DNA of 35,413 nucleotides. It comes from Streptomyces albogriseolus. Lineage in GTDB: Bacteria; Actinomycetota; Actinomycetes; Streptomycetales; Streptomycetaceae. Position 1 is the first letter of the stretch, and each line of letters opens with the position of its first letter. The position numbers were made by a program, and so were the translations under genes. The notes under the pieces were generated by a model. It worked only from the letters and a program-made list of their open reading frames with translations, was not told the DNA's origin and made no database searches. Shown here one piece after another: positions 2 through 24,904 of this stretch. Location: assembly GCA_014650475.1 (NCBI GenBank), contig BMVA01000034.1, positions 1-35,413 on the forward strand. The letters run 5' to 3'.

Positions 2-1264
2 GCTCCCGCGCCGGCGCCGGTGCCGGCCGCCGCGGCGCAGGCGGCCGCGGCGCAGTACCCGGCCGCCCCGCACGTCCCGCCCGGCGGGCAGCCCATGCCG
101 TTCACCACCGGATACGTCACGACCGGCATGGTCGCGGGCGAACACCTGTCGATGCACCGGGAGTACCTGGACGGCCAGCTGCGGGTGGCCGACCGGCTCA
201 GCGGGGTGCTGCTGGAGGAGACCGGGCGCGGCGGCCCCAGCGAGAACGTCGTCGCGGGCATCACCGCGGTCACCCAGCACAGCCTGGCGATCGGGCAGAG
301 CCACGTCCAGGCCAGCGAGGTGCTGCGCAGCCTCGCCCAGATGGAGAGCGGCGTGGCGGTGGCCGACGGCCGGACCGCGGCCGACGGACCCGCGGGCTTC
401 GTCCCGGCGAACGGGAACGGGAACGGCCACGCGTACGCGCTCGCCAACGGCAACGGGTACCCGGCCGGCGCGAACGGCAACGGGTACGCCCTGGCGGGCG
501 GGAACGGGCATGCCGCGTACGCGGAGGCGGCCCCTTCGTACGACGCCTACGCGCCCGCGCTCGCCCCGGCGGCCGCCCCGGCGCCGGCGCCCGTCGCGCC
601 CGAGCCGGCGGTCGTCCCCGCCGCGCCGGAACCGGCCGCCGCGCCCGCGGCCTCCACGCCCGTGCCCGCGCCCGCCGCCACGTCGGTCGACGAGGTGCGC
701 AGGGTGCTCCTGGAGAGCGTCGCCGCCAAGACCGGCTACCCCGCCGACATGCTCGAAACCGGCATGGACATCGAAGCCGACCTCGGCATCGACTCCATCA
801 AACGCGTCGAGATCATGGGCACCCTCCGCGACCGCTTCCCCGGATCCGCCGACGCCGCCCCCGAACAACTCGCCGAACTCCGCACCCTCGACGACATCAT
901 CACCTTCATCACCGACGCCACCGGCGCCACCGCACAGCCGCAGGCGACCTCCGGACCCGCCGGCACCCCCGCGGCCGTCTCCGCCGACGGGGTGCGCAAG
1001 GTGCTCCTCGAAAGCGTCGCCGCCAAGACCGGCTACCCCGCCGACATGCTCGAAACCGGCATGGACATCGAAGCCGACCTCGGCATCGACTCCATCAAAC
1101 GCGTCGAGATCATGGGCACCCTCCGCGACCGCTTCCCCGGATCCGCCGACGCCGCCCCCGAACAACTCGCCGAACTCCGCACCCTCGACGACATCATCAC
1201 CTTCATCACCGACGCCGCCGGCGCCACCGCACAGCCGGAGGTGGTGGCCGCCCCAAAAGCCTGA
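2..1264 (+). CDS. pfaA: PfaA-like PUFA synthase subunit, 5'-truncated: linker and two tandem ACPs (frame ends at a UGA)
   Basis: The frame is open from the window edge, so the N-terminal KS and AT domains expected for PfaA lie outside it. What is seen: an Ala/Pro linker, a segment of the type that follows the AT in PfaA proteins (about 95-360, with HREYLDGQL), an Asn-Gly-rich flexible linker (about 408-520), a long Ala/Pro linker, and two ACPs (about 690-920 and 990-1215). Each ACP carries LGIDSIKRVE, whose Ser is the phosphopantetheine site. The frame ends at TGA 1262-1264, yet the next PfaA domain (KR) continues directly in the -1 frame. The ACPs carry the growing chain for the KS, KR, DH and ER activities. 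Two ACPs is low for PfaA proteins, which usually have four to nine. The family call is secure; whether this frame makes a separate product is open. Confidence 0.85.
   Translation, partial: APAPAPVPAAAAQAAAAQYPAAPHVPPGGQPMPFTTGYVTTGMVAGEHLSMHREYLDGQLRVADRLSGVLLEETGRGGPSENVVAGITAVTQHSLAIGQSHVQASEVLRSLAQMESGVAVADGRTAADGPAGFVPANGNGNGHAYALANGNGYPAGANGNGYALAGGNGHAAYAEAAPSYDAYAPALAPAAAPAPAPVAPEPAVVPAAPEPAAAPAASTPVPAPAATSVDEVRRVLLESVAAKTGYPADMLETGMDIEADLGIDSIKRVEIMGTLRDRFPGSADAAPEQLAELRTLDDIITFITDATGATAQPQATSGPAGTPAAVSADGVRKVLLESVAAKTGYPADMLETGMDIEADLGIDSIKRVEIMGTLRDRFPGSADAAPEQLAELRTLDDIITFITDAAGATAQPEVVAAPKA
716..1237 (+). repeat. Direct repeat of the ACP coding sequence (2 x 225 bp, offset 297 bp)
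   Basis: Bases 716-940 and 1013-1237 match at 224 of 225 positions; the only difference is A920 versus G1217. The unit covers nearly all of each ACP and keeps frame, since 297 bp is 99 codons. Such identity at synonymous positions points to recent duplication or ongoing gene conversion. It is also a place where an assembly could collapse or miscount copies. Confidence 0.95.
1237..1264 (+). promoter_or_regulatory. Candidate -1 programmed ribosomal frameshift site
   Basis: In the ACP frame the codons read GCC CCA AAA GCC TGA. Bases 1252-1258 are C CCA AAA, a canonical X XXY YYZ heptamer. A -1 slip gives CCC AAA AGC CTG and enters the open KR frame. GGAGG at 1237-1241 lies ten bases upstream, the distance at which an internal Shine-Dalgarno sequence stimulates -1 shifting in dnaX. 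CCA and AAA are both rare codons in high-GC actinomycetes. Downstream, 1265-1271 can pair with 1335-1341 after a six-base spacer, and 1311-1317 with 1323-1329. Short GC-rich complementarity is common here, so the structures are weak evidence. A missing base in the C4A4 run is the alternative. Confidence 0.5.
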
Positions 1265-3573
1265 CGCCCGGCCTCGGACGCTTCCACGCCGCGCTGACCG
1301 CCGTACCGGAGCCGGACGAGCTGTCCGGCGCCTACCGGGCGGACCCGGTGGCGCTGCTGGCGGGCTCGGGTGAGCTGCTCGAACCGCTGGCCGGGGCGTT
1401 GCGGGCGCGGGGCTGGACGGTGCACACCGGCCGGGAGGCGCCCGAGGGCGCCGAGCGGCTGGACCTGGTCGTCGACTGCGTCGAGGCCGGCGGGCACGAG
1501 GCGCAGCTCGCCGCGCTGCGGGAGACGCTGCTGCTGGCGGGCCGGACGCAGCCGCTGCTGGAGCGGGCCGCGGGCGAGGGGCGCGCCGCGTTCGTCACCG
1601 TGACCCGGCTGGACGGCCGGCTGGGCCTGTCGGGGACGGCGGGCGTGGAGCGGGCCGCGCTGGGCGGTGTCACAGGGTTGGTGAAGACCCTCGCGATCGA
1701 GGCGCCGGCGCTGTTCTGCCGGGCGCTGGACCTGGCGCCGGAGCTGCCGGCCGAGCGCTGCGCGGAGGTGTTCCTGGCGGAGCTGTACGACGCCGAGCGT
1801 GCGCTGACCGAGGTCGGGCGCCCGGCGGACGGGACACGTCTGACCGTGACGCCGGCCGACGAGGCGGACCCGTCGTCGCCGGGCGAGCCGGGCGCCGGCG
1901 CCCCCGGCGCGGACGATCTGCTGGTGGTCACCGGCGGGGCCCGCGGGGTGACGGCGTCCTGCGTGCTGGGGCTCGCCCGGCGCCACCGCACGGGCCTGCT
2001 GCTGCTGGGCCGTACCCCGCTGACCGAGGAGCCCGGGTGGGCGTCCGGGGTGGCGGAGGACGGTCTGCGGGCCGCCGCGGCGGCCGAGCTGAAGCGGTCG
2101 GGCGCCAAGCCGTCGCCGCGCGCCGTGGAGGCGATGGCCCGCGAGGTGACCGCCGTCCGCGAGATCCGCGGCACGCTGGCGGACCTGCGGGCGGCCGGCT
2201 CCGCGGCCGAGTACCTGGCGGTGGACGTCAGCGACGCGGACGCCGTGCGCGAGGCGCTCGCCCCGCACCGTGCCCGGGTCACCGGGGTGGTGCACGGCGC
2301 CGGTGTGCTGGCCGACGGCCTGGTGCGGGACAAGAAGGCCGGCGACGTGGACCGGGTGCTGGCCACCAAGCTGACCGGGCTGCGCAACGTGCTCGGGGCG
2401 CTGGACGGCGCGCGGGTGCGGCACGTGGTGCTGTTCTCCTCGGTCGCCGGTTTCTTCGGCAACCGCGGCCAGTCCGACTACGCGATGGCCAACGAGGCGC
2501 TCAACCGGTGGGCCTGCGCCCTGCGCGCGGCTGCCCCGCGGACCCGGGTCACCTCGGTGAACTGGGGCGCGTGGGCGGGCGGCATGGTCACCCCGGCGCT
2601 GGAGAAGATGTTCGCCGAGCGGGGCGTGACGCTGATCCCGGTCGAGGAGGGCGTGCGGTACTTCGTGGAGCAGTTCTCCGCGGAGCGGGCCGCCGACACG
2701 GTGTGCGTGGTCGGGCCGAGGAGCCCGCTGTCCGCGCGCGAGCCGGCCCCGCTGCCGGCCGGCGGGCTGGTGCTGCGCCGCGCCATGGCGGCCACGGCGG
2801 CCGACGCGGTGATCGCGGACCACGCGATCGGCGGGGTGCCGGTGCTGCCGGCCACCGCGGCCGTGGGAGGTCTGCTGGGCGCGGTGCACCGGGCGGCGCC
2901 CGGGACGCGCGTCACCTCGGTGCGCGGGTTCCAGGTGCACAAGGGCGTCGTCTTCGACGACGGGCGTCCGGACGTGCTGGAGACGACGGTGCGCCAGGCG
3001 GACGGCGCACCGGAGTACGAGGTGTCGGTGCGGGACGGCTCCGGTCGGCCCCGCTACCGGGCGCTGCTGGCGGCCGGTCCGGCGCCGGCGGCCGCGCGGG
3101 TGACGGGTCTGCCGCAGGGCGGGGACGGGGCCCCGGCGCCGTACTACGAGGACGGGACGCTGTTCCACGGCCCGGCCCTGCGCGGCATCACCGGCGTCCT
3201 CGACGCGGGCCGCCGGCTGGTGCTGGCCGCCCGGCTGGCCGACCCCGGCATCGCCCGGGGCGCGTGGCAGGCGCCCGGCTACAGCCCCGTGCTGTCCGAC
3301 CTGCTGCTGCAGGCGGTGCTGGTGTGGGCGCGTCTGCACCGCGGCGAGGCCGTGCTGCCGACCGCGGTGGGCGAGGTCGAACTGCTCGCGCCGCTGCCCG
3401 AGGACGAGCCCTTCCGGCTGGTCGTCGACGCGGTGTCCGAGACGGCGAGCGGCATCCGCTGCACGGTCACGGCGTGCACGCCCGACGGGCGGGTGCTGCA
3501 GCGGATGCGCGAGGTCGAGGCAGTGCCGAGCCCGGGGCTGGCGGAGAAGTTCGCCGCGGCGTCCGGGTCCTGA
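1258..3573 (+). CDS. pfaA: PfaA-like PUFA synthase, C-terminal part: ketoreductase and dehydratase (-1 frame relative to the ACPs)
   Basis: This is the -1 frame continuation of the ACP frame; AGC at 1258 is its first codon after the proposed slip. The first potential independent start is GTG 1348, which has no good ribosome binding site and would cut off residues (RFHAAL...PEPDEL) resembling the linker that precedes the KR in PfaA proteins. KR: nucleotide-binding TGGARGVTA at 1930-1956, catalytic Ser at about 2437-2442 and Tyr at 2479 in SDYAMANEAL. It reduces the beta-keto group with NADPH. The C-terminal third is a hot-dog dehydratase with His at 2821 in an HxxxGxxxxP motif and a later SPVLSDLLLQ segment carrying the expected Asp. 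It ends 27 bp before the pfaC-like gene. I believe it is normally fused to the ACP part. Confidence 0.85.
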   Translation, partial: SLTPGLGRFHAALTAVPEPDELSGAYRADPVALLAGSGELLEPLAGALRARGWTVHTGREAPEGAERLDLVVDCVEAGGHEAQLAALRETLLLAGRTQPLLERAAGEGRAAFVTVTRLDGRLGLSGTAGVERAALGGVTGLVKTLAIEAPALFCRALDLAPELPAERCAEVFLAELYDAERALTEVGRPADGTRLTVTPADEADPSSPGEPGAGAPGADDLLVVTGGARGVTASCVLGLARRHRTGLLLLGRTPLTEEPGWASGVAEDGLRAAAAAELKRSGAKPSPRAVEAMAREVTAVREIRGTLADLRAAGSAAEYLAVDVSDADAVREALAPHRARVTGVVHGAGVLADGLVRDKKAGDVDRVLATKLTGLRNVLGALDGARVRHVVLFSSVAGFFGNRGQSDYAMANEALNRWACALRAAAPRTRVTSVNWGAWAGGMVTPALEKMFAERGVTLIPVEEGVRYFVEQFSAERAADTVCVVGPRSPLSAREPAPLPAGGLVLRRAMAATAADAVIADHAIGGVPVLPATAAVGGLLGAVHRAAPGTRVTSVRGFQVHKGVVFDDGRPDVLETTVRQADGAPEYEVSVRDGSGRPRYRALLAAGPAPAAARVTGLPQGGDGAPAPYYEDGTLFHGPALRGITGVLDAGRRLVLAARLADPGIARGAWQAPGYSPVLSDLLLQAVLVWARLHRGEAVLPTAVGEVELLAPLPEDEPFRLVVDAVSETASGIRCTVTACTPDGRVLQRMREVEAVPSPGLAEKFAAASGS

Positions 3574-3600: not shown

Positions 3601-6600
3601 ATGTCCAGCACACTCCGCGGCGCCGGTCGCCGCGACGAGCCGGTGGCCATCGTGGGTATGGCCTGCCTCCTTCCCGGTGCGCACACCCCCGACGAGTTCT
3701 GGGAGGCGCTGCTCGCCGGGGAGGACCACCGCACGGAGGGCGGCCGGGAGGTCTTCGGGACCGACCCGGCCGTGCCCGGCGGGTGGGGTGACGCGGACCA
3801 CCGTGTCACCGCCACGCGCGGCGGATTCGTCCATGAACCGCCGATCGACCTGACCGGCCTGAACGTGCCCGCCGGTGAACTCGCCGCCCTGGACCGGGTG
3901 GTGCTGTGGTCGCTGCACACGGTCCGCCAGGCGCTCGCCGACGCGGGCCTGGACGGGCCGGACGGGCTGGCGCGCACCGGGCTGGTGCTGGGCAACTACT
4001 CGTTCCCCACCGAGGCGTCGGTGGGTCTGTGCACCCCGCCCGTGCGGCGGGCGGTCACCGAGGGCCTGGCGCGTGCCGGGCTGCCCGTGCCGCCCGCCGC
4101 GGCGGGTGAGCCGGAGCCCGCGGCGGAGAACCTGTGGCCGTTCGGGCAGCCGGCGACGGTGACCGCGCGGGCGCTCGGTCTGGGCGGGCCCCGGCTGGCG
4201 CTGGACGCGGCGTGCTCCTCGGCGCTGTACGCGATGGCGCTGGCCCGGGACTACCTGGCCACCGGCGCGGCCGACGTGATGGTGGCCGGAGCGGTGTGCG
4301 CGCCCGACCCGCTGCTGATCCACCTGTCCTTCTCGGATCTGCACGCCTACCCGGACAACGGGGTCAGCCAGCCCTTCGACGGCCGGTCCTCCGGCATCGT
4401 CACCGGCCAGGGCGCGGGCGTGCTGGTGCTCAAGCGGCTCTCGGACGCGCTGCGGGACGGCGACCGGGTGCACGCGGTGCTGGAGTCGGTCGGGCTGACC
4501 AACGACGGGGCCGGCCGGCACCTGCTGAGCCCGAACGTGCGCGGTCAGCTGGGCGCCTACCGGCAGGCGTACACGCACGTGGACCCGGCGTCGGTGGACT
4601 ACATCGAGTGCCACGCGACGGGGACCCCGCTGGGGGACGCGACGGAACTGCGCGGCCTGGCCGAGTACTTCGGCTCGGTGGGCGCCGAGGTGCCGCTGCT
4701 GGGGTCGGTGAAGGGCAACGTCGGCCATCTGCTGACGGTCGCCGGCTTCACCAGTGTGCTCAAGACGGTGCTGGCGCTGCGGCACGGCGTCGTCCCCGCC
4801 ACGCCCGGGGTGCTCTCGCCGCTGCGGCCGGAGGGCGCCGAGGCGGTCGCGGACCGGCTGGTGCTGGAGTCCCGCCCGTGGCCGGAGCGGGATGGTCCGC
4901 GGCGTGCCGCGGTGTCCGCGTTCGGCTTCGGCGGCACCAACGCGCACGCGGTGCTGACCGGCCCCCGGGCGCTGACCGGCTCCTCCCCCGCCGTGGGGCT
5001 GAAGCCCGGCGAGGAGTCCGGTGCCGCCGGTGCGCGGCCGGTGCGGCAGCCGCGGCTCGCGGTGGTGGGGCTGGGGACGCGGCTCGGGCCGCTCACCGGC
5101 ACCGGTGAGCTGGCACGCGCGGCGCGGTCGGGACGGCCGGCGCTGACCGGGCGGCCCGCGAACCGCTGGTACGGCGCCGAGCAGGTGCCGGGCGGTCCGC
5201 TGGCCACGACCGTGGCCGAGGGCGCCGACCCGGCCGGCGGCTACGTCGACGCCGTGGACGTGCGTCCGCGTACCTACCGCATCCCGCCGAACGAGCTGGC
5301 CCAGGCCAACCCGCAGCACCTGGCGCTGTTCGAGGCGGCGGAGCAGGCGTTGGCGGACGCCGGTCTCGACGCCCCGCCGCCCGGGGTCAAGGCGGACGAG
5401 CTGCCCGGGTCCCGGGTCGGCGTGGTGGTCGCCATGGAGATGGAGCCGCGCACCCACACCCACCGCGCCCGGTTCGACATCGGCGCCCATGTCCGCGCCG
5501 AGTGCGCGCGGGCCGGGGTGACGCTGGACGCGGAGCGGCTGGACCGCCTGGAGGAGGCGGTGCGCGGCGCCGTGCACGACCCGATCGGCGCCAACGAGGT
5601 CCTCAGCTACATCGGCAACGTGATGGCGAGCCGGATCTCCTCCTCCCGCAACCTGACCGGCCCGTCGTTCACCCTGGCGGCCGACGGCACCGCCGCGGTG
5701 CGGGCCCTGGAGGTGGCCCGTCTGCTGCTGCTCGACCCCACCGTGGACGCCGTGCTGGTGGGCGCGGTGGACCTGGCCGCCGGCGCGGAGAACACCCGGG
5801 CCAGGGCCCGGATCGCCACCGCGCGCGGCGAGGAGATGCCGGTGCTGGGCGACGGGGCCGCCGCCGTGGTCGTCACCCGTGAGGACGCCGTGCGGGGGCG
5901 GCGCGTGTACGCCACGGTCGACGCGCTGGCCGTGCACTGTGCGCCGGACCGCGCGGACGCGGTGGCCGGGGCGGCCCGGCAGGCCCTGTCGGCCGCGGAG
6001 GCCGGCCCGGCGGACGTGGCCTACCTGGAGCTGTCGGGGGCCGTCGCGGACGCCCGCCGGGAGGAGGCCGCCGCGCTGGCCGCGGTGTACCGGGCCGGCG
6101 AGGGCGACGACCCGTACGGGTGCGCGCTGGGCGGCACCACCGCGCTGGTCGGGGACACCGGCCGGGCGGCGCCGCTGGCGTCGCTGGTCTCGGCCGTCCT
6201 CGCGGTGCACCACGCGGAGTTCCCGCCCGCGCCGGAGGGTCTGCTGGACGCGTCCGCGCCCGGGCTCGAGGGGTCGCGGTTCACGCTGCTCGGCGATCCC
6301 CAGCCGTGGCTGCCCGAGCGGCGCGGCGGGCGGCGGACGGCCGCGGTGAGCGTGCTCGGCGACGACGGCCCGCACGGAGCGACCGCCGCCCACCTCGTGG
6401 TGCGCGGCACGGCGCCGGACGCCGCCGGGGCGCCGGCGGCGTCCTGGACGGACGGTCCGGGCGTGTGGATCCTGCCGTTCTCCGCCGAGGACGGTCCGGC
6501 GCTCGCCTCCGCCGCGGCGGCCCTGCGCGCGGAGATCGCGGGCCGGGGCGCCGAGGCGGTGGTGCGGGAGGCCGCGCACCTGCCCAGGGCCGGCCGGCTG

Positions 6601-9600
6601 ACGGCGGTGGTGGTCGCGGCCGACGAGGCCCGGCTGGACGCCGAACTGGCCGCGGCCGAACGGGACCTGCCGTCGGTCGCCGACGGGGGCGGGGAGTGGA
6701 GCACGCCGTCCGGCAGCTTCTGCACCGCCCGGCCGGTCGGCCCCGAGGGCCGGGTCGCGTTCGTCTATCCGGGCGCCTTCGCCACCTACCCGGGCGCCGG
6801 ACGTGATCTGTTCCGGCTGTTCCCGGGGCTGCGGGCCGCCTTCGAGCGGGAGGCGGACCGGCCGGCCGAGCGGCTCAAGCACCGCTCGCTGTTCCCGCGG
6901 GCGCGGGGGCCGGTCGACCGGCGCGCGATGATGCGGCACGAGGCGGAGCTGATCGAGGACATCCCGGTGATGCTGGCCGCGGGCACCAACTTCGCGGTGC
7001 TGCAGACCCGGTTGCTGCGGGACGTCCTGGGCGTGGCCCCGGACGGCGCGTTCGGCTACAGCCTGGGCGAGTCCAGCATGCTGTTCGCGACCGGGGTGTG
7101 GGCCGAGGCGGCGCGCGACGACGCCGCCCTGGCCGCGACGCCGCTGTTCCGCGACCGGCTGCGCGGACGCAAGGAGCAGGTGCGCGAGGCGTGGTCGCTG
7201 CCGGCGGACACCCCGGACGCGGGGGTGTGGACGACGCGGGTGCTGCTGGCGGGCGCCGACCGGGTGCGCGACGCCATGACCGGCCTGGACCGGGTGTTCC
7301 TCACGCACGTCAACACCCCGCGGGAGACGGTGGTCGCGGGCGATCCCGGGCAGGTCCGCGAGCTTGTCGAGCGGGTGGGGTGCCAGGCGGCCAAGGCGCC
7401 CGCCAACCATGTGATGCACTGCCCCGTCGTCGACCCCGCGCTGCCCGGCCTGGCCGCGCTGAACGACTACCCGCTCGCCGGCGACGTCCCGTCGCTCGAG
7501 CTGCTGTCCGCCTACGACTACGACACCGTCCCGGTCACCGACCGGGCGGAGCTGGCCGGGCGGATCGCGCACACCCTGCGCTCCACGATCGACTTCGCGC
7601 GGCTGGCGCGGACCGCGCACGACCGCGGCTACCGCTACTTCGTCGAGGTCGGCCCCGGCGCCACCTGCACCCGCTGGATCACCGAGACGCTCGGCGGGCG
7701 CGCGCATCTGGCGGTGTCGGTGGACCGGCGCGGCGCCGCCGGCGCGGCCGCCCTCGCGCAGGCCCTGGCCCGGCTGGTCGCCCACGGTCTGGACGTGGAC
7801 CTGGGCGTGCTCTTCCCCGCCCCCCGCACCGCCGCCGCGCCCGGGCCCGTCCTGAGGGTGGCCTGCGGGGGCGAGGCGACCGTGGAGCGGGTGGCCCGCG
7901 CGGCGGCCCCGCTGCTCGCCCCGACCGCTTCCGCCGACTCCCCCGAGGTGACCGCCGTCATGAGCCCCGCTCCCCCGCCGAGTGCCGTCCCGCCCCAGGA
8001 GGCGGCGGCCGGGCCCGTCCCGGTGTCCGAGGGGATCGTCGTCGAGGGAACTCCCTTCGTCCATCTGCCGGAACCGGCTCATGTGCCCGCTCTCGCGGGC
8101 GCCGGGGCGCACCGGGCGGCGCCGGCCGTTCCGGCCGCCCGGGCGTCCCTGCCGGGGCCGGTGTCGCCGCTCCAGGCGATCGCGGCGAGCGTGGCGCACG
8201 CCCACCGGGCCGCGCTGCGGGCCCAGCACGCCGTGCTGGAGGCCTCGCTGCGGACGCTGACGCCGTCCGGGCCGGCGTATCCGGGCCGGCCCGCACCGTC
8301 CCTGCCGCCGGCCGGCCCGCCGGGGCCGCGGACGCCGGAGCCGCAGGCGCCCGCGCCGGAGCCGGGCGGTGACGGCGGCGGGCCCGTGGTCTGGGACGAG
8401 CGGGATCTGCTGGAGTTCGCACAGGGCCGCGTGGCCCCGGTGTTCGGGCCGGCGTTCGCCGAGGTCGACACCTACCCGCGGCGCTGCCGGCTGCCGGAGC
8501 CGCCGTACCACTTCGTCAGCCGGGTCACCCGTGTCAAGGGCGAGACCGGGGTGTTCGAACCGTCGGAGATCACCACCGAGTACGACGTGCCGGTGGGCGC
8601 CTGGTACAGCGTCGACGGTCTGGTGCCGTGCGCGGTCACCATCGAGGCCGGTCAGTGCGACATGCTGCTGATCAGCTACCTGGGCATCGACTTCCGCACC
8701 CGGGGCGAGCGCGTCTACCGGCTGCTGGACAGCCGGCTGGTCTTCCACGGCCCGCTGCCGCGCGAGGGGCAGACGCTGCGCTACGACATCCGCATCGACC
8801 GGTTCGTGTGGAACGGCGACAGCCTGCTGTTCTTCTTCAACTACCGCTGCTACGCGGACGGCGAGCTGATCCTCGAACTGCTCGACGCGTGCGCCGGGTT
8901 CTTCACCCCCGCCGAGCTGGAGGACTCCCTCGGCGTGGTGGAGACGGCCGCCGACCGGGCGCGCCGCGCGGCGATGACGCCGGCCTGGTTCAAGCCGCTG
9001 GCCCGCACCGACGTCACGTCGCTGAGCGGGGCCGATCTGGCGCTGCTCGCCGAGGGACGGCCGGGTGAGGTGTTCGGGCCGCGCTGGGACCAGCGGGCGG
9101 ACGGTGCGAACCGTTCGCTGCGGCTGCCCGGCGAGATGCTCCGCATGATCGACGAGATCACGTCGGTGGACCGCCTGGGCGGTCCGCGCGGCCTGGGACG
9201 TCTGTCGGCGGTCAAGCGGCTCGACCCGGACGGCTGGTACTTCCGCTGCCACTTCACCGGCGACCCGGTGCTGGCCGGTTCGCTCATCGCCGAGGGCGGT
9301 GTGCAGCTGCTCCAGGTGTACGCGATGTACCTGGGCATGCACCTGGTGCTGCCCGACGGGGAGTTCCAGTCGGTGCCGGGGCTGGAGACCGAGGTGAAGG
9401 TGCGCGGGCAGATCACCCCGGACATGCGGCAGGTCCGCTACGAGGTGGACGTGATCGAGCTGACGATGCTGCCGCGGCCCACGGTGATCGCGGACATCAC
9501 CGTGTACGACGGGGACAAGCCGATCGTGTCGATGCGCAACTTCGGCGTCCGCGTCCAGGAGAAGCCGGGCACGCCGTACCGGCCCGAGACCGGCGGGCTC

Positions 9601-10797
9601 CCCGCCTTCCTCGGCCGCCGCAACGAGCGCGGCGAGGCGGCCTTCATCAACGAACTGCACCTGGCCCACGCCGCCAAGGGCGACCTCGGCACGGCGATGG
9701 GCACCGAGTTCGAGATCTACGCCGGCCGGCGCGCGCCGTACATCCCCAACGGGGACTTCCGGTTCGTGGACCGCATCATGCGGCTCGACGGGACCCGCGG
9801 CGACCTGTCGCCCGGTTCCACGATGGCCACCGAGTACGACTCGCCGCCGGAGGCCTGGTACTACGCGGACAACGGCCCGGCGGGCATGCCCAACTGCGTC
9901 GTGATGGAGACCTCGCTGCAGGCGGCGATCCTGCTCGGCTACTACCTGGGCGCGACCCTGGCCAAGCCCGAGGAAGAGCTGTCCATCCGCAACCTCGACG
10001 GCCGGGCCACCTTCGTCAAGGACCTGGACCTGCGCGGGAGGACGATCCGGCACGAGTCGGAGCTGCTGTCCAGCCAGGCGGTGCCGGGGGCCACCCTGCA
10101 GAACTTCCGCTACCGGCTGCTCGCCGACGACGAGGTGTTCTACGAGGGCGAGTCGCTGTTCGGCTACTTCACCGAGCAGGCGCTGTCCAACCAGGTCGGA
10201 CTGGACTCCGGGCAGTACGTGCCGCCGTGGCTGGAGTCGGCCCGCGAGCGGCTCGAGGAGTCCGCGGTGCGCCGGCTGCCGGTGCGCTCGGACGACCGCT
10301 GGTTCACCCCGGCCGCGGGCAGCGGCCTGCGCCTCGGCGACGGGCATCTGCGGCTGGTCGACGAGGTGACGCTGGTCGACGGGGGCGGTGAGCACGGCAA
10401 GGGCTATGTGCACGGTCACCGCCGTATCGACCCCGACGACTGGTACTTCTCCTGCCACTTCCACCGCGACCCGGTGATGCCCGGCTCGCTGGGCGTCGAG
10501 GCCGTGCTCCAGGGGCTGCAGGCCCTGGTGATCGAGTCCGGACTGGCCGACGGCATGGGCCCGGTGCGGTTCGCCGTGCCGCGGGACGTGCCGATGGGCT
10601 GGAAGTACCGCGGGCAGATCCTGCGCGAGGACCGCGAGATGACCTTCGACGCGCACATCAAGGAGGTCCGCCGCACCGACGGCCGGCTGACCGTCGTCGC
10701 CGACGCCAGCGTGTGGAAGCCGGGTCTGCGCATCTACGAACTGACCGACATCGCCGTGGACGTCGTTCCCGACGAGTCCGCCGAGGAGGACCAGTGA
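3601..10797 (+). CDS. pfaC: PfaC-like PUFA synthase subunit: KS, chain-length factor, AT, four hot-dog dehydratase domains
   Basis: A 2398-residue multidomain synthase. KS (about 15-455): Cys205 in DAACSSA, His338 in CHATGTP and His376 in NVGH. Chain-length factor (about 480-900): a KS fold with the Cys position replaced by Asp695 (AADGTA). Acyltransferase (about 1045-1400): nucleophile Ser1154 in GYSLGES. A Pro/Ala linker runs from about 1440 to 1595. The C-terminus is two FabA-like double hot dogs: a non-catalytic half (about 1600-1780) then a catalytic half with His1884 in CHFTGDPVL; a second non-catalytic half (about 2020-2220) then one with His2286 in CHFHRDPVMPG. It condenses the chain, sets its length and dehydrates or isomerises double bonds. 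Marine bacterial PfaC lacks the AT, which sits on PfaB; this layout is closer to fused forms. ATG 3601 follows GGGAGAA; the stop overlaps the pfaD start. Confidence 0.9.
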   Translation: MSSTLRGAGRRDEPVAIVGMACLLPGAHTPDEFWEALLAGEDHRTEGGREVFGTDPAVPGGWGDADHRVTATRGGFVHEPPIDLTGLNVPAGELAALDRVVLWSLHTVRQALADAGLDGPDGLARTGLVLGNYSFPTEASVGLCTPPVRRAVTEGLARAGLPVPPAAAGEPEPAAENLWPFGQPATVTARALGLGGPRLALDAACSSALYAMALARDYLATGAADVMVAGAVCAPDPLLIHLSFSDLHAYPDNGVSQPFDGRSSGIVTGQGAGVLVLKRLSDALRDGDRVHAVLESVGLTNDGAGRHLLSPNVRGQLGAYRQAYTHVDPASVDYIECHATGTPLGDATELRGLAEYFGSVGAEVPLLGSVKGNVGHLLTVAGFTSVLKTVLALRHGVVPATPGVLSPLRPEGAEAVADRLVLESRPWPERDGPRRAAVSAFGFGGTNAHAVLTGPRALTGSSPAVGLKPGEESGAAGARPVRQPRLAVVGLGTRLGPLTGTGELARAARSGRPALTGRPANRWYGAEQVPGGPLATTVAEGADPAGGYVDAVDVRPRTYRIPPNELAQANPQHLALFEAAEQALADAGLDAPPPGVKADELPGSRVGVVVAMEMEPRTHTHRARFDIGAHVRAECARAGVTLDAERLDRLEEAVRGAVHDPIGANEVLSYIGNVMASRISSSRNLTGPSFTLAADGTAAVRALEVARLLLLDPTVDAVLVGAVDLAAGAENTRARARIATARGEEMPVLGDGAAAVVVTREDAVRGRRVYATVDALAVHCAPDRADAVAGAARQALSAAEAGPADVAYLELSGAVADARREEAAALAAVYRAGEGDDPYGCALGGTTALVGDTGRAAPLASLVSAVLAVHHAEFPPAPEGLLDASAPGLEGSRFTLLGDPQPWLPERRGGRRTAAVSVLGDDGPHGATAAHLVVRGTAPDAAGAPAASWTDGPGVWILPFSAEDGPALASAAAALRAEIAGRGAEAVVREAAHLPRAGRLTAVVVAADEARLDAELAAAERDLPSVADGGGEWSTPSGSFCTARPVGPEGRVAFVYPGAFATYPGAGRDLFRLFPGLRAAFEREADRPAERLKHRSLFPRARGPVDRRAMMRHEAELIEDIPVMLAAGTNFAVLQTRLLRDVLGVAPDGAFGYSLGESSMLFATGVWAEAARDDAALAATPLFRDRLRGRKEQVREAWSLPADTPDAGVWTTRVLLAGADRVRDAMTGLDRVFLTHVNTPRETVVAGDPGQVRELVERVGCQAAKAPANHVMHCPVVDPALPGLAALNDYPLAGDVPSLELLSAYDYDTVPVTDRAELAGRIAHTLRSTIDFARLARTAHDRGYRYFVEVGPGATCTRWITETLGGRAHLAVSVDRRGAAGAAALAQALARLVAHGLDVDLGVLFPAPRTAAAPGPVLRVACGGEATVERVARAAAPLLAPTASADSPEVTAVMSPAPPPSAVPPQEAAAGPVPVSEGIVVEGTPFVHLPEPAHVPALAGAGAHRAAPAVPAARASLPGPVSPLQAIAASVAHAHRAALRAQHAVLEASLRTLTPSGPAYPGRPAPSLPPAGPPGPRTPEPQAPAPEPGGDGGGPVVWDERDLLEFAQGRVAPVFGPAFAEVDTYPRRCRLPEPPYHFVSRVTRVKGETGVFEPSEITTEYDVPVGAWYSVDGLVPCAVTIEAGQCDMLLISYLGIDFRTRGERVYRLLDSRLVFHGPLPREGQTLRYDIRIDRFVWNGDSLLFFFNYRCYADGELILELLDACAGFFTPAELEDSLGVVETAADRARRAAMTPAWFKPLARTDVTSLSGADLALLAEGRPGEVFGPRWDQRADGANRSLRLPGEMLRMIDEITSVDRLGGPRGLGRLSAVKRLDPDGWYFRCHFTGDPVLAGSLIAEGGVQLLQVYAMYLGMHLVLPDGEFQSVPGLETEVKVRGQITPDMRQVRYEVDVIELTMLPRPTVIADITVYDGDKPIVSMRNFGVRVQEKPGTPYRPETGGLPAFLGRRNERGEAAFINELHLAHAAKGDLGTAMGTEFEIYAGRRAPYIPNGDFRFVDRIMRLDGTRGDLSPGSTMATEYDSPPEAWYYADNGPAGMPNCVVMETSLQAAILLGYYLGATLAKPEEELSIRNLDGRATFVKDLDLRGRTIRHESELLSSQAVPGATLQNFRYRLLADDEVFYEGESLFGYFTEQALSNQVGLDSGQYVPPWLESARERLEESAVRRLPVRSDDRWFTPAAGSGLRLGDGHLRLVDEVTLVDGGGEHGKGYVHGHRRIDPDDWYFSCHFHRDPVMPGSLGVEAVLQGLQALVIESGLADGMGPVRFAVPRDVPMGWKYRGQILREDREMTFDAHIKEVRRTDGRLTVVADASVWKPGLRIYELTDIAVDVVPDESAEEDQ

Positions 10798-12374
10798 CCA
10801 CCGCCCCCGCCCGGACCACCACCCCGCCCGTGCACACGGATCCCGCCGGGATCCACCGGGTGCTCGGCGCCCTGGAACAGCCCTGCTACATCGTCGGCAC
10901 CGGACAGGGCGTCGGCGCCGCGAACGCCGCGCCCGGCCCCGGCGGCCGGATCGTGGCGGCCGTCGGGCCGCTGCCGCCCGAGCGGCTCGGCTGCTCCGCC
11001 TTCCGCGCCCGCCACGGCGTCGGACACGCGTACATGGCCGGCGCGATGGCCGGCGGCATCGCCTCCGAGGAGCTGGTGATCGCGCTGGCCCGGGCCGGGG
11101 TGCTGGCGTCCTTCGGGGCGGCAGGGCTGCTGCCCGGGCGGATCGACCGGGCGCTGACCCGCTTCGCCGCGGAGATCCCCGCCCTGCCGTACGCGGTCAA
11201 CCTGATCCACAGCCCGAGCGAGGACGCCCTGGAACGCGAGGGCGTGGAGCTGCTGCTGCGGCACCGGGTGCGGTGCGTGGAGGCCTCCGCGTTCATGGAC
11301 CTCACCCCGCACGTGGTGCGCTACCGCGCCGCCGGGCTGAGCCGCACCCCCGACGGCCGGGTGCACGTGGGCCACCGGATCGTCGCGAAGGTCTCGCGCG
11401 CCGAGGTCGCCGAGCGGTTCATGCGCCCGGCGCCCGAGGCGATCACCGCGGACCTGGTGGCACGCGGGCTGATCACCGCCGAACAGGCGGAACTGGCGCG
11501 GCGGGTGCCGATGGCCGACGACGTCACCGCCGAGGCCGACTCCGGCGGCCACACCGACCGGCGTCCGCTGACCGCCCTGTTCCCGGGGCTGCTCCGGGTG
11601 CGCGACACCGTCCAGCGGGAGCTGGGGTACGGGCAGCGGATCGGTCTGGGCGCCGCGGGAGGCATCGGCACGCCGCGTGCCGCGGCCGCCGCGTTCGCGC
11701 TGGGCGCCGACTACGTCGTCGTCGGCTCCGTCCACCAGTCCTGCCTGGAGTCGGGCACGTCGGACGCGGCGCGCCGGCTGCTGGCGGGAGCGGGACTCGC
11801 GGACTTCGAGATGGCGCCGGCGGCCGACATGTTCGAACTCGGCGTGGAACTGCAGGTGCTGAAGAAGGGCACCTTGTTCCCGATGCGCGCCAAGAAGCTC
11901 TACGAGCTGTACAAGGCGTACGACGGTGTGGAGGCGCTGCCCGAGGAGGCGCGCGGGCAGCTGGAGCGGCAGGTGTTCCGACGGCCGCTCGACGACGTGT
12001 GGGCGGACGTGGAGGAGTACTTCACCCGCCGCGACCCGGACCAGCTGCTCCGCGCCCGGCAGTCGCCGCGGCGGCGCATGGCGCTGGTCTTCCGCTGGTA
12101 CCTGGGCATGGCGTCGCGGTGGGCGGTGACCGGTGAGGGCGAGCGGACCGCCGACTACCAGGTGTGGTGCGGGCCGGCGATGGGCGGCTTCAACGAGTGG
12201 GTGCGCGGCAGCTATCTCGCCGCGCTGGAGAACCGCAGGGCCGCCGACGTCGCCCATCACCTGATGCGCGGGGCCGCGTTCACCGCGCGGGTGCAGCAGC
12301 TCGCCTGGAACGGGGTCCGGCTGCCGGCCGCGTGCACCGAGTACGTGCCCGTCCCGCCCGGGGAGGCGCGATGA
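10794..12374 (+). CDS. pfaD: PfaD-like FMN-dependent enoyl reductase of the PUFA synthase
   Basis: A 526-residue trans-acting enoyl reductase of the nitronate monooxygenase-like TIM-barrel family. It reduces enoyl-ACP intermediates in selected rounds. Seen: the N-terminal YIVGTGQGVGAAN segment, barrel motifs AYMAGAMAGGIASEELV and GLGAAGGIGTPRAAAAAFALGADYVVVGS (flavin phosphate region), and a C-terminal part with MFELGVELQVLKKG, FPMRAKKLYELY and WCGPAMGGFNEWV, typical of PfaD. GTG 10794 is chosen because GAGGAGGA precedes it and it overlaps the pfaC TGA in a GTGA arrangement, implying translational coupling. A longer open frame upstream only shadows the end of pfaC. It ends in an ATGA overlap with the next gene. 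Confidence 0.92.
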   Translation: MTTAPARTTTPPVHTDPAGIHRVLGALEQPCYIVGTGQGVGAANAAPGPGGRIVAAVGPLPPERLGCSAFRARHGVGHAYMAGAMAGGIASEELVIALARAGVLASFGAAGLLPGRIDRALTRFAAEIPALPYAVNLIHSPSEDALEREGVELLLRHRVRCVEASAFMDLTPHVVRYRAAGLSRTPDGRVHVGHRIVAKVSRAEVAERFMRPAPEAITADLVARGLITAEQAELARRVPMADDVTAEADSGGHTDRRPLTALFPGLLRVRDTVQRELGYGQRIGLGAAGGIGTPRAAAAAFALGADYVVVGSVHQSCLESGTSDAARRLLAGAGLADFEMAPAADMFELGVELQVLKKGTLFPMRAKKLYELYKAYDGVEALPEEARGQLERQVFRRPLDDVWADVEEYFTRRDPDQLLRARQSPRRRMALVFRWYLGMASRWAVTGEGERTADYQVWCGPAMGGFNEWVRGSYLAALENRRAADVAHHLMRGAAFTARVQQLAWNGVRLPAACTEYVPVPPGEAR

Positions 12375-14140
12375 GGACGGCGGCGACGACGGCCGCGCCG
12401 TACGCGGCCGTGACGGAACTCGACCTGGCGCTGGGCGACCCGCGGGACCCGGGCAGCCCGTACGGGTTCGCGGCCATGGCCCGCCGGGACGCCGGCGAGG
12501 CCTACCCGCGGGAGCTGGCCGAGCGGGTCGGGCCCTGGCTGCGGACGGCGTTCGTGCCGGCCGGTCAGGGCGGCGACCTGGTCTCCCTGGACCACACGCT
12601 GATGCTGGTGCGGGCGGCGGCCCGCCGGGACCCGGCGGTGATGCCGGCGACGATGTTCAGCATCACCGCGGCGGTCTGCGTGCTCGCCGCGGGGTCGGCC
12701 GGGCAGCGCGAGCGGGTGGTACGGCTGCTGCGCGAGGGCGGATCCGTCGGTTTCGCCCTGTCGGAGGCGGAGCACGGCGGCGATCTGCTGGCCAACTCCT
12801 GCACCGCCGCGCCCGCTTCGGGCAAGGACGGCGGGGGCTATGTGCTGGACGGCGAGAAGTGGCTGGTGGGGCTCGGCGAGCGCTGCCAGGCGCTGCTGGT
12901 GGTGGCGCGCACCGGACGCCGCGGGCCGGGCGCCTTCTCGGCGCTGTTGCTGGAGGGCAGCGAGGTGGACAAGGCGCGCTCGGGGATCCGGCAGCGGCCG
13001 GCCGGGATGCGCGGCGTCGACTTCGCCGGGTTCCGCTTCGAGGGGCTGCCGGTGCGCGCGGACGCGCTGGTCGGGCAGCCCGGGCACGGCCTAGAGATCG
13101 CGATGAAGGCCATGCAGGTGGTGCGGACCATGAGCACCGGGTGCAGTCTGGCCTGCGCGGACACCGGGCTGCGGCTGGCGTGGGACTTCGCCCGCGAGCG
13201 GCGGGTGGGCGGGCGCGGCGCGGACGGACTGCCGTATCCGCGGCGGGAGCTGGCGACGGCGGCCGCGCTGGTGCTGGCCGCCGACGTGGCGGCGCTGACG
13301 GCCGCGCGGGGCGCGCATGCGCTGCCTCAGGCGCAGTCCCTGTGGTCGAGTGTGGCGAAGAAGACAGCCACCGACTTCGCGGACGAGGCCCTCGCCCGCT
13401 GCGCGGACGTCCTGGGCACCCGGAGCCTGCTGCGGGACGGCCCGTACGCGGCGTTCGACACCGTCCGCCGGGACAACGCCGTGGTGCGGTACATCGACAC
13501 CAGCCCGGTGGCGAACACCCGGCTGGTGGCGGCGCAGCTGGCCCGGCTCGCCGGGGCGGCCGGCAGCGCGGACGACGGGGACGGGGCGCAGGACGCGCTG
13601 GGCCGGGTCTTCGACCTGGGGGCCGCGCTGCCCGAGGCGGACTGGGACCGGCTGCGGCTGTCGGGCCGGGGCGGGGATCCGGTGCTGTCCCGGCTGCCGG
13701 CGGTGGCGGCGGCGGTGCGGCACGCGGTGACCGAGGGGGCCGCGGCGCCGGTCGCCGACGCCGCCCGGATCGTCGCCCGCACCCGGGAGCTGGAGTGCGC
13801 GGTGGGCGGGCTGCTGCACGACGTGTCCTGGCGGCTGGGCGGCGGCAAGGACCAGGACGGCGGCCCGCCGGAGCTGGGCCACCTGGCGGAGCGGCTGTGC
13901 CTGCTGCACACCGCGGCGAGCTGTGTGCACCTGTGGTGGGCCTGCCGCGACCGCTCGCTGTTCGGGCTGCCGCCCGGCGACGCGGGGTGGCTGAGCCCGG
14001 TGCTGACGGCCGTGCTGGACCGTGCGGGCGGGCGCGTCGCCCCGCTGCCCGACGCGGAGGCGCGCCGGCTCATGGACGTCGTCACCCCCTTGTACGAGGA
14101 GAACCGCATGTTCTCCTGCGCCGCCCCCCATCTGGCCTGA
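12371..14140 (+). CDS. Long acyl-CoA dehydrogenase-like flavoprotein (589 aa), copy 1
   Basis: An acyl-CoA dehydrogenase fold (about residues 25-390) with a C-terminal extension of about 200 residues absent from typical 380-residue members. Seen: the FALSEAEHGGDLLANS flavin/substrate segment, GYVLDGEKWLVG, and a helical domain ending in RYIDTSPVANTRLVAAQLARL. At the position where medium-chain enzymes have the catalytic Glu of YEGT, this reads YIDTS, so an Asp or a residue elsewhere would have to be the base. It probably introduces or moves a double bond in the synthase product; the substrate is unknown. ATG 12371 overlaps the pfaD stop (ATGA), so it is co-translated with the synthase. It is paralogous to the following gene. 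Confidence 0.8.
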   Translation: MRTAATTAAPYAAVTELDLALGDPRDPGSPYGFAAMARRDAGEAYPRELAERVGPWLRTAFVPAGQGGDLVSLDHTLMLVRAAARRDPAVMPATMFSITAAVCVLAAGSAGQRERVVRLLREGGSVGFALSEAEHGGDLLANSCTAAPASGKDGGGYVLDGEKWLVGLGERCQALLVVARTGRRGPGAFSALLLEGSEVDKARSGIRQRPAGMRGVDFAGFRFEGLPVRADALVGQPGHGLEIAMKAMQVVRTMSTGCSLACADTGLRLAWDFARERRVGGRGADGLPYPRRELATAAALVLAADVAALTAARGAHALPQAQSLWSSVAKKTATDFADEALARCADVLGTRSLLRDGPYAAFDTVRRDNAVVRYIDTSPVANTRLVAAQLARLAGAAGSADDGDGAQDALGRVFDLGAALPEADWDRLRLSGRGGDPVLSRLPAVAAAVRHAVTEGAAAPVADAARIVARTRELECAVGGLLHDVSWRLGGGKDQDGGPPELGHLAERLCLLHTAASCVHLWWACRDRSLFGLPPGDAGWLSPVLTAVLDRAGGRVAPLPDAEARRLMDVVTPLYEENRMFSCAAPHLA

Positions 14141-14177
14141 ACCGACCGCGCGCACCGCGCAGGGAAGGAACCGCACC

Positions 14178-15962
14178 GTGACAGTCGACGACCTCGTCGC
14201 CCTGGCGGAGGGGCTGGAGGACCACCTCGGGGACCCGCACGACGCCGGGGCCCGTATGCCGTTCTCGAAGGTGCTGGCCTTCGACGAGCGGGAGGAGTTC
14301 CCCTACGAGCTCACCGATCTGCTCCAGGCCTGGGGCGTGCACGAGTACTGCCTGCCCGAACGGTGGGGCGGGCGGGCCGGTGACGTGGAGGTGGGATTCA
14401 ACCTGGTGCGTCTTGTGGCCCGCCGGGACCCGACCACCGCGACCGCGCTGATGATCACCAATGTGGCGTTCATGCCGCACTGGATCGCCGCCGGCGACGA
14501 GCAGGGCCGGGCCGCCGTGCACGGCATCCGGCACGGCGTCCGGATGTCCTGGGGGCTGTCCGAACGGCGGCACGGCAGCGACGTGCTGGCCAACGAGATG
14601 CGGGCCGAGCGGGTGCCCGGCGGCTGGCGGCTCACCGGCGAGAAGTACCTGATCGGCAACGCCACGATCGCCGACGTGGTGAGCGTCCAGGCGCGCACGG
14701 CCGAGCGCGGGGGGCCGGGCGGCTGGTCGGTGTTCGCGCTGGACCGGCGGCGGTGCCCGGCCGGCACGGTCGCGGCCCTGCCCAACGAGCGCCTGCACGG
14801 GCTGCGGGCGCTGGACATGAGCGGCATCCGGGTCGACGGCGTGTTCGTGCCGGAGGACGCCCTGGTCGGGGCCGAGGGTCAGGGTCTGGAACTGGCCCTG
14901 AAGAGCGCCCAGGTGGCCCGGGTGGTCATCGGCAGCATCGCCCTGGGGGCGGTGGACACCGCGCTGCGGCTGACGATGGACTTCGCCGCGCGGCGGGAGA
15001 TCTTCGGGCAGCGGGTCGCCGACATCCCCTACTCCCGGCGCCAGCTGGCCGAGTGCTTCGCCGACCTGATGGTGGCGGACGCGGTGTGCGGCGGCGCGGT
15101 GCGCGCGCTGCAGAGCAACCCGGCGCAGGCCAGCGTGTACTCCTCGGTGGTCAAGTACTTCGTGCCGACGCTGCTGGAGCGCACCATGGGGCAGCTGTCG
15201 GTGCTGCTCGGGGCGCGGCTGTACCTGCGGGACCACCCGCACTTCGGCGTCTACCAGAAGATGCTGCGGGACCTGGCGGCGGTCTCGTTCGTCGACGGCA
15301 ACACCGTGGTGAACCTGAAGAACATCGCGGCGCAGCTCGACGGGCTGCTGCGCACGGCGCGGGACGCCGGTGACGGCCTGCGGGCGGAGGCGGTGGAGCG
15401 CGTCGGCGTCATGTTCGGCCTGAACGCCGAGCTGCCGGTGTGGCGTCCGGAGCGGCAGCTGCTGGTCAGCCGGGGCCGGGACGACGTCCTGCTGGCCCTG
15501 CCCGACGCGCTGGAGCGGCTGCGGGACCTGGCGGAGCGTCAGCGCGACGAGCGGGACCGGGCGTTGTTCCACCGTGCGGCGGAGACGGGTGACCGGCTGC
15601 TGAAGGAGTTCGACCGGCTGCTGGGCGAGACGGCCCGGCTGAAGGAGGACGTGGGACGCGGGTACGCCGCGACCGCCGAGCAGTTCCGCCTGGCCGAGCA
15701 GTACTGCGCCCTGCACGCGGGCGCGGCGGCGATCCACCTGGCGGTGCGCTCGCAGGGCGCGCTGGGCGAGGGCTTCCCCGACCCGGCGGTGCTGCTGCTG
15801 TGCCTGGAGCGGGTGTGGCGTCAGTTCCGTCCGACGGAGACGGTGACGGACGCGGCCGTGGTCGACCGGGTGGCGGGGGTCCTGAGCGGACTGCACGAGG
15901 AGGGCCGGCTGTTCTCCCACTGGCCGGTCCGGGTGCGGGCGTCGGCGGACTGGACGGCGTGA
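14178..15962 (+). CDS. Long acyl-CoA dehydrogenase-like flavoprotein (594 aa), copy 2
   Basis: A paralogue of the preceding gene, matching it along its length; compare MRGVDFAGF/LVGQPGHGLEIA with LRALDMSGI/LVGAEGQGLELA. Seen: WGLSERRHGSDVLANEM, GWRLTGEKYLIGNATIADVV, and a C-terminal helical extension with coiled character (RDLAERQRDERDRALF, DRLLGETARLKEDV). The usual catalytic YEGT position reads FVDGNT, again Asp in place of Glu. GTG 14178 is chosen for the AGGGAAGGAA site at 14161-14170; the frame runs on upstream inside the previous gene but that part is its shadow. It is the last gene of the + strand synthase operon and faces the reductase gene across a bidirectional terminator. A heterodimer or sequential pair with copy 1 is possible but not shown. 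Confidence 0.8.
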   Translation: MTVDDLVALAEGLEDHLGDPHDAGARMPFSKVLAFDEREEFPYELTDLLQAWGVHEYCLPERWGGRAGDVEVGFNLVRLVARRDPTTATALMITNVAFMPHWIAAGDEQGRAAVHGIRHGVRMSWGLSERRHGSDVLANEMRAERVPGGWRLTGEKYLIGNATIADVVSVQARTAERGGPGGWSVFALDRRRCPAGTVAALPNERLHGLRALDMSGIRVDGVFVPEDALVGAEGQGLELALKSAQVARVVIGSIALGAVDTALRLTMDFAARREIFGQRVADIPYSRRQLAECFADLMVADAVCGGAVRALQSNPAQASVYSSVVKYFVPTLLERTMGQLSVLLGARLYLRDHPHFGVYQKMLRDLAAVSFVDGNTVVNLKNIAAQLDGLLRTARDAGDGLRAEAVERVGVMFGLNAELPVWRPERQLLVSRGRDDVLLALPDALERLRDLAERQRDERDRALFHRAAETGDRLLKEFDRLLGETARLKEDVGRGYAATAEQFRLAEQYCALHAGAAAIHLAVRSQGALGEGFPDPAVLLLCLERVWRQFRPTETVTDAAVVDRVAGVLSGLHEEGRLFSHWPVRVRASADWTA

Positions 15963-15983
15963 GCGGGGGCCGGCGGGCGGGAC

Positions 15984-16028
15984 GGCGGCGGTCCGCCGGG
16001 CGACGGGGCGCGCCCGTGGACCGCCGCC
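15984..16028. terminator. Bidirectional hairpin terminator between convergent genes
   Basis: Bases 15984-15994 (GGCGGCGGTCC) pair perfectly with 16018-16028 over 11 bp. The 23-base loop can itself form a small GGGCG/CGCCC stem. It fills the 70-bp gap between two convergent stops. There is no U-tract, as is common in actinomycete terminators. Confidence 0.6.
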
Positions 16029-16032
16029 CGGG

Positions 16033-17637: not shown

Positions 17638-18014
17638 GTGACCTCACGTTCCCTTCGTGTCGGTGGGGGGGGGTCGACGGGGCCGAGGGTCACAGGCGCC
17701 GCTGGAGTCCGGACGGAAACCGGCCGACCGGTTCCGATTCCTTTTCCGGAACGGCCTGCCGAACGAAGCCCGAAAATGGCCGGCTGACAATCCGCTGACG
17801 GTCGTCCCGAAAGCTGACGGTCTTCTGTCAGTTCCGTTTTGTGCGGGGGGAAACCGCAGGCAACCGAGTTGCGCACCGCGGGAATGCGAGCCGTAGGAAA
17901 GCCTTCGTCGCTTTTCGGACAGGTCGCTTCTTTGCCGGGTGTGTGGCGCGAACCCTAATGTCGCCGCCCTGGCTCAGGAACACGCACGACCCTTCCGGAA
18001 AGGAATGGCGGCCT
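17638..18014. promoter_or_regulatory. Divergent intergenic region with CTGAC repeats
   Basis: A 377-bp gap between the - strand reductase and the + strand sigma factor, so promoters for both should lie here. It is less GC-rich than its flanks around 17735-17850. GCTGAC occurs at 17783, 17794 and 17813, and the inverted half-site GTCAG at 17827-17831 pairs with CTGAC 17814-17818. This looks like an operator cluster. I could not place -10/-35 boxes with confidence. Confidence 0.4.
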
Positions 18015-18638: not shown

Positions 18639-18755
18639 GCACGGCGGAGGCCGACGGCGCCCGGACGCCCTGACCGCCCGCCGGATGTATCCAGGGCTCC
18701 CCCCGCCCCCTCTGTTTCTGCGACGACGGCGACGCACGAGGGAGTGTGAGAGCAC

Positions 18756-19904: not shown

Positions 19905-20042
19905 CGCGCCCCAGCGGGCGCCGCCGGAACGAGCCCCCCGCCGCCGAGACCTCCGGGAGGTGACAGCGATGCGTCACATCCACTGAATGCCCCGCCACGC
20001 GGGACGAGTCCCCCACACGTGGGACTGAGCCGAGCACATGGT

Positions 20043-20077
20043 CCGCCGGGTACAACGGGACGCCCCGTACCCGGCGG
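20043..20077. terminator. Hairpin between the P450 and MFS genes
   Basis: CCGCCGGGTAC (20043-20053) pairs perfectly with 20067-20077, an 11-bp stem with a 13-base loop. A second hairpin at 20007-20026 (AGTCCC...GGGACT) lies just upstream. It sits after the P450 stop and 49 bp before the exporter start, so it may terminate the P450 transcript or structure the exporter's leader. Confidence 0.45.
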
Positions 20078-20125
20078 GCCCGTGGCGTCGAAGGACCGGA
20101 CGACGCACGAGCGAGGGGACCGCCT

Positions 20126-22705: not shown

Positions 22706-22749
22706 CGGGTGTCCTTCGGGTCCTCGGCGGCCTCGGGGCACGTGCCCGC

Positions 22750-23886: not shown

Positions 23887-23887
23887 G

Positions 23888-24805: not shown

Positions 24806-24904
24806 GGGGCTCCTCCTGGCGGACGGTGAGCGGGTACGTGGGCGGCTGAGGGCGGGCTGACGGGTCGTCGGGACGGGGCCGTGGCCGGGCTGCGTGCCGG
24901 TCCG

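Follow-up and report, generated by a model that had tools for sequence, protein, structure and literature searches.

The pfaA gene at the start of a Streptomyces albogriseolus contig (BMVA01000034.1) very probably contains a programmed −1 frameshift at the boundary between its acyl carrier proteins (ACPs) and its ketoreductase (KR), by which one mRNA would give rise to a KR-less and a KR-bearing PfaA and set the ratio of the two. The window, meaning the whole stretch of DNA that was analyzed, comprises this entire contig of 35,413 bp, which belongs to an 8.07-Mb draft genome of 66 contigs. Its edge falls inside pfaA, so that the first gene of the window lacks its 5′ end. A frame switch, a conserved heptamer, an upstream Shine-Dalgarno (SD) register and stops are found at this boundary, and relatives carry them in two polarities with the same pair of predicted products. 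The proposal in a preliminary description of the sequence, that a single mRNA yields both a KR-less protein and the full PfaA, is strongly supported by this comparison.

The ACP/KR junction in two strains

The zero-frame part of PfaA in the window (positions 2 to 1264, forward strand, frame 2) consists of a linker and two ACPs and ends with VVAAPKA. Two stretches of it match Pfam PP-binding. The first ACP is located at 704 to 910 (residues 235-303 of the zero-frame part), and the second is placed by its offset from the first at 1001 to 1207, with approximate limits. The two ACPs (704-1207) are 98% identical over 242 nt, and this near-identity, as read from the sequence, implies a recent duplication or gene conversion. 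The TGA at 1262 to 1264 closes frame 2 and thereby the short, KR-less form, while frame 1 is open from 1252 to a stop at 3571-3573 and encodes the ketoreductase and dehydratase (KR-DH) in the −1 frame, with KR at residues 225-442, PKS_DH_N at 514-592, and PS-DH at 633-760. This fragment alone covers positions 1854-2581 of TIGR02813 with a partial score of 436.6.

The junction reads GGAGG-(10 nt)-C CCA AAA GCC TGA, as had been described. An SD-like GGAGGTG occupies 1237 to 1243 (GGAGG at 1237-1241) and is separated by a ten-base gap from the heptamer at 1252 to 1258, which takes the X XXY YYZ form in the zero frame. A single zero-frame codon, GCC, lies between the slip and the TGA. The ten predicted −1-frame residues just past the slip are PKSLTPGLGR, and the predicted peptide across the slip site is ...VVAAPKSLTPGLGR.

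A tblastn search of plasmids retrieved pSALBX2 of S. albogriseolus LBX-2, a finished linear plasmid of 336,677 bp. Its protein is 100% identical to the −1-frame part over 773 residues, and the nucleotide alignment of plasmid and window, 11,576 columns long, is 99.4% identical and contains 51 mismatches and 2 gap openings. LBX-2 is therefore another strain. The heptamer, the C4A4 run, the SD, and the TGA are identical in the two sequences, one of them finished and from a different strain, and this excludes a base-calling error. The undercalled base in C4A4 that the preliminary description had considered is thereby set aside, as the run has no extra base in pSALBX2.

The LBX-2 gene (L294, CP042595.1 207802-226120; the record carries no annotation) supplies the part of PfaA that is absent from the window. 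From the ATG taken as its start, the zero-frame product has 1,394 aa with the order ketosynthase (KS), acyltransferase (AT), ACP, ACP, and the predicted −1 product has 1,391 + 773 = 2,164 aa with the order KS-AT-ACP-ACP-KR-DH. Together with the PfaC- and PfaD-like genes downstream in the window, this is the KS-AT-ACPn-KR order of a pfa cluster. The zero-frame part of LBX-2 scores 1266.6 against TIGR02813 omega_3_PfaA (cut-off 1010.1), and this cut-off is likewise exceeded by the loci L046, L048 (zero-frame part), and L062. Two ACPs are present in LBX-2 as well, with small linker differences from the window. In this strain the 337-kb linear plasmid carries pfaA and, at a minimum, the first 11.6 kb of sequence that matches the window.

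Conservation, polarity, and signals at the slip site

Relatives were gathered by protein search, and the last ACP and the KR frame were located in each locus. L037 and L038, below the score limit of 200, were left out. Of the 142 loci scored, nine had no ACP found (L010, L014, L026, L028, L032, L052, L060, L121, and L166), and merging of identical junctions gave 117 distinct loci, on which the tree and all statistics rest, including those for the 66 signal-bearing loci. The heptamer search was restricted to Y = A or T.

An in-phase CCCAAAA is present just past the last ACP in 64 of these 117 actinobacterial PfaA loci, and the 64 can be divided into two classes. In class A (20 loci, including the window and a complete Kutzneria chromosome, L048) the zero frame stops and the KR-DH lies in the −1 frame; exactly one codon precedes the zero-frame TGA in 16 loci, 4 codons in two, and 13 in two. 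In class B (44 loci) the zero frame runs into the KR-DH and a slip would end the protein early, at a −1 stop that follows after one or two further codons in 39 loci and after seven to ten in 5. Both polarities therefore predict the same pair, KS-AT-ACP and KS-AT-ACP-KR-DH. Two additional class B loci outside the 117, L135 (−1 stop after two codons) and L185 (after one), bring the total for CCCAAAA to 66 of 119. Two loci of the set carry other heptamers (CCCTTTT in L136, GGGAAAA in L202), and the remaining 51 have no heptamer of the A or T type. GGGAAAA in L202, whose −1 stop comes 11 codons later, was scored among the variants but is probably due to chance.

The heptamer was placed on a KR-DH tree, built by a quick method from rows whose start lies some 40 or more residues beyond the slip. 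All rows of the window's clade have it (28/28, support 98), as do all those of a second clade (31/31, support 88) and of a third set of three rows, and it occurs in two of the four rows of a Frankia-like clade. The A and B labels need 5 changes on this tree. The comparison of close homologues that the preliminary description had proposed finds the heptamer, the SD, and the frame change all kept, and a chance origin of the junction is excluded because it is conserved among relatives. What had been described did not include the dnaX-like, opposite polarity that most signal-bearing relatives show, the variants of the heptamer, a narrow anti-SD register, or the many class B hairpins.

The two codons at the slip, which had been noted as rare, are so across the 66 signal-bearing loci, window included: CCA makes up 4.3% of Pro codons (301/7,013) and AAA 11.9% of Lys codons (141/1,183). 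On the given strand, these loci (464,834 nt in all) contain no further CCCAAAA. The 39 close class B stops use five T-ending codons (GCT 20, GGT 10, CGT 5, CCT 2, GTT 2) before GA or AA, and one of them is TAA. T ends just 7.3% of the codons in the 46 class B-type genes (4,220/58,089), and the chance of a −1 stop so near is 0.8-7.7% per gene for the 39 sites. In nine Streptomyces/Glycomyces-group loci out of the 20 of class A, the differences between pairs past the heptamer fall mostly at the wobble position of the −1 frame (118/199 in the first 30 nt, 545/1,226 in 120 nt), and those in the upstream ACP block fall at the zero-frame wobble position (462/648). To judge from these codon patterns, selection looks to act on frameshifting and not on the peptide.

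The stretch upstream of the heptamer was evaluated by its pairing energy with an assumed sequence of the 3′ tail of the 16S rRNA (docking). The mean best docking energy is −9.7 kcal/mol over the 66 sites versus −3.3 for 660 controls taken from the same loci, and energies of at most −6 kcal/mol are reached by 58/66 sites versus 87/660 controls. The SD keeps a set spacing, as the best anti-SD register is −18 or −17 in 49 sites and −18 to −15 in 58; GGAGGTG in the window docks with −13.7 kcal/mol at register −18. Docking is weak at a few sites (L142 −3.7, L129 −2.8, and L125 −1.1 kcal/mol). On the downstream side, a perfectly paired stem with at least 8 pairs begins 4-12 nt past the heptamer at 23 of the 46 class B-type sites versus 65 of 1,320 controls. 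Two class B hairpins, both picked for alignment because they were already visible, are backed by compensatory changes. The first alignment has 15 sequences; pairing holds in 97.5% of its cells, and both sides differ in 6 cells, a result that none of 500 shuffles reached. The second has 3 sequences and 5 pairs with both sides changed, which was reached by 7/500 shuffles.

Two side observations concern individual relatives. L047, from Streptomyces sp. SW4, shows a second frame break in the KR-DH (near residue 440) and broken neighboring open reading frames (ORFs), yet has the same slip site; its assembly looks error-prone. The plasmid-borne pfaA of Rhodococcus opacus (L295 2817-3240) keeps the PKA peptide after the last ACP and has no slippery heptamer, possibly a loss of the slip signal.

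Proposed mechanism and competing explanations

In the proposed mechanism, the 16S tail of the translating ribosome would pair with GGAGGTG and cause a pause with tRNA-Pro on CCA and tRNA-Lys(UUU) on AAA. A fraction of the ribosomes, according to the efficiency of the slip, would then re-pair one base back (CCC AAA) and read into the KR-DH. Unslipped ribosomes would add one Ala and stop at the TGA. KS-AT-ACP-ACP and KS-AT-ACP-ACP-KR-DH may subsequently assemble as mixed PfaA subunits, and such assemblies would contain more KS-AT-ACP stations than ketoreductases; setting the KR-less:KR-bearing ratio is the presumed purpose. Among the tRNA-Lys genes of the host, three are CUU and one is UUU, and its tRNA-Pro genes comprise one UGG, one CGG, and three GGG. 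AAA may be kept over AAG because only tRNA-Lys(UUU) would re-pair well on AAA after the slip. In E. coli, by contrast, the highest value in one study (PMC4066793) was that of C_CC.A_AA.G, which reached 54% in combination with the IS3 pseudoknot, and C_CC.A_AA.A and C_CC.U_UU.U are among the motifs above 0.10% without a stimulator.

Several findings weigh against a programmed frameshift with two useful products. The relatives that are fused and have no A- or T-type heptamer amount to 51/117, so that two products are not needed, and the short form is not indispensable, in every PfaA. For the five distant class B stops, the chance of a −1 stop so near is 6-23% per gene, and four of the five are at 9-23%. 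Well-supported branches, compared with all other rows, force 5 changes for class B and only 2 for class A. The −1 frame of the class A loci L045, L047, and L164 ends after 466-587 codons, short of a full DH. In the 15-sequence hairpin, two of five covariation measures were reached by 72 and 70 of 500 shuffles. A proximal stem of 8 or more pairs is present at just 1 of the 20 class A sites, and a folding test of 79 nt downstream of the window heptamer, which covered structures other than pseudoknots, showed nothing out of the ordinary (z −0.37). A general need for downstream structure was rejected, as such structure is found neither for class A nor for the window. According to PMC4066793, a downstream stimulator is not always present in bacterial frameshift cases.

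The absence of the signal from those 51 relatives, and the lack of a known function for the short form, would fit a real frameshift whose short product is an idle by-product, with a tolerated frame error rescued by the slippery site. This reading is unlikely. Class B needs no rescue, yet it keeps the heptamer, the SD, and the close −1 stop, as well as a hairpin in half of its sites, and both products were kept while the polarity changed 5 times on the tree (2 changes being forced by well-supported branches for class A).

Two translationally coupled genes, with termination at the TGA and reinitiation on the KR-DH ORF, are improbable to a further degree. The KR-DH frame does overlap the TGA, and its first ATG, GTG, or TTG in the window is the GTG at 1348. 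Among the 20 class A loci, however, the first start codon in the KR frame varies from +9 to +222, and none of them has an ATG or GTG in that frame within 60 nt upstream. The −1-frame peptide PKSL is conserved right after the slip, with wobble positions most variable in the nine loci tested. Class B is also left unexplained, since its long frame is uninterrupted and the heptamer, the SD, and the −1 stop are nevertheless kept. Reinitiation was rejected, as no start is conserved.

Slippage of RNA polymerase instead of the ribosome is a still more doubtful source of the second frame. Runs of 7 to 10 A at the same boundary in SAR324 (L068, L070) and Anaerolineae (L072) could act in this way. A run of four A after four C is probably too short for polymerase slippage, though, CCCTTTT is found at the same place elsewhere, and neither the X XXY YYZ phase nor the anti-SD register should be of consequence except to ribosomes. 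Sequencing or assembly error, or a dead gene, which the 66-contig draft and the homopolymer junction C4A4 might suggest, can practically be dismissed given the same junction in the finished LBX-2 plasmid, the complete Kutzneria chromosome, and 18 further class A loci, and given the codon-level constraint that still acts on the KR-DH.

Known systems, other phyla, and the rest of the window

The programmed frameshift favored here resembles that of dnaX (tau/gamma), in which the −1 heptamer A AAA AAG is combined with an SD about ten nt upstream, a stem-loop, and a quick stop in one frame. Both have a heptamer, the SD spacing, a quick stop in one frame, and two proteins that differ by their C-terminal part. 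Class B shares the polarity of dnaX and often a downstream stem-loop, whereas the window, besides being another gene with another heptamer, has the opposite polarity and no proximal hairpin. In insertion sequence transposases of the IS3/IS911 type, a −1 shift makes the long protein, as in the window; here, in contrast, the gene is a cellular biosynthetic megasynthase and no mobile element. The stimulators of IS3 and IS911 are treated in PMC4066793. Relative to TIGR02813 omega_3_PfaA, the loci described here differ by a frame split or by a −1 stop beside the slippery site.

Actinobacterial PfaA-type synthases are also found in the type M clusters for Pfa-like secondary lipid synthases, which have been described in Frankia, Actinosynnema, S. 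avermitilis, and others (Shulse and Allen 2011, PMC3098273); the accessible part of that text contains no word beginning with “frame”. In line with the preliminary description, the literature searched, which includes the available parts of PMC3711429, PMC5009743, PMC4066793, and PMC3098273 and lies mostly outside subscription journals, gave no programmed frameshift in a synthase for polyunsaturated fatty acids (PUFAs) or polyketides. A “Polyketide cyclase” cluster in PMC3711429, as far as that text is accessible, belongs to translational coupling and is not a synthase. Frameshifting is a known kind of event; what appears to be new is that it is used here, and that a single gene family shows it in both polarities.

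If this is true, a programmed frameshift would for the first time be known to control the subunit stoichiometry of a fatty-acid or polyketide megasynthase, and an iterative lipid/polyketide megasynthase would make two subunit forms by translational recoding. It would bear on the modeling, expression, and engineering of PUFA-type synthases, as one of the two forms would go missing unnoticed if a synthetic pfaA were codon-optimized. Gene finders that ignore recoding would break class A genes in two and overlook the short product of class B. The family would also provide a natural series in which the two-product outcome is kept while motif, hairpin, and polarity change.

Variant slip sites are present in further lineages. 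All six loci examined from one actinobacterial genus (g4, family f4) carry C CCT TTT and, directly after it in the −1 frame, a TGA; one of the six is among the 117, and four further matches from this genus stand outside the count. The non-actinobacterial set comprises 50 loci of L067-L118 (L071 and L084 excluded), 46 of them with an ACP found. Two proteobacterial loci from metagenome-assembled genomes (MAGs; L095 and L102, 2/46) have CCCTTTT with an immediate −1 TGA and GGAGG nine bases upstream. An A-run breaks the frame in 4/46 loci (L067, L068, L070, and L072). In L067, a MAG labeled Bacteroidetes, A AAA AAG is followed by a zero-frame TAA, GGAGGTGA lies upstream at the same ten-base spacing, and the KR-DH is in the −1 frame. 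The SAR324 and Anaerolineae loci break frame at A7-A10 runs, where polymerase slippage is possible; L070 and L072 are weak cases because of further frame changes downstream. The other 40/46 loci have no convincing slip site. A-run heptamers with −1 stops 3-5 codons on (L073, L104, L112) and heptamers with more distant −1 stops (L088, L107, L118) were treated as chance. The ACP/KR boundary could well be an ancient recoding point, at which several phyla keep KR-less and KR-bearing subunits from one gene while the motif and the long frame turn over. This reading is somewhat more likely than not, and the proteobacterial, Bacteroidetes, SAR324, and Anaerolineae cases, with one or two loci each, are its weakest part. 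Separately, the pfaA of Persicobacter psychrovividus (L297 2431-3000) changes frame after the sixth ACP, with a zero frame ending in GKIMA and no X XXY YYZ heptamer listed, and that of Persicobacter sp. JZB09 (L296) is fused.

Downstream of pfaA on the forward strand, the window contains a PfaC-like gene (3601 to 10797), in which domain and TIGRFAM matches identify two ketosynthase-type stretches, an AT/PfaB-like region, and two FabA-type DHs. It is followed by an ORF with a domain match to a PfaD-like enoyl reductase (10713 to 12374; the start is probably later than 10713). Beside these pfa genes, positions 12164-26530 encode two acyl-CoA-dehydrogenase-like proteins, a 2Fe-2S/DmmA-like protein, a sigma-70-like factor, a P450, a major facilitator superfamily (MFS) transporter, a further acyl-CoA dehydrogenase, a TrpA-like protein, and an AMP ligase.

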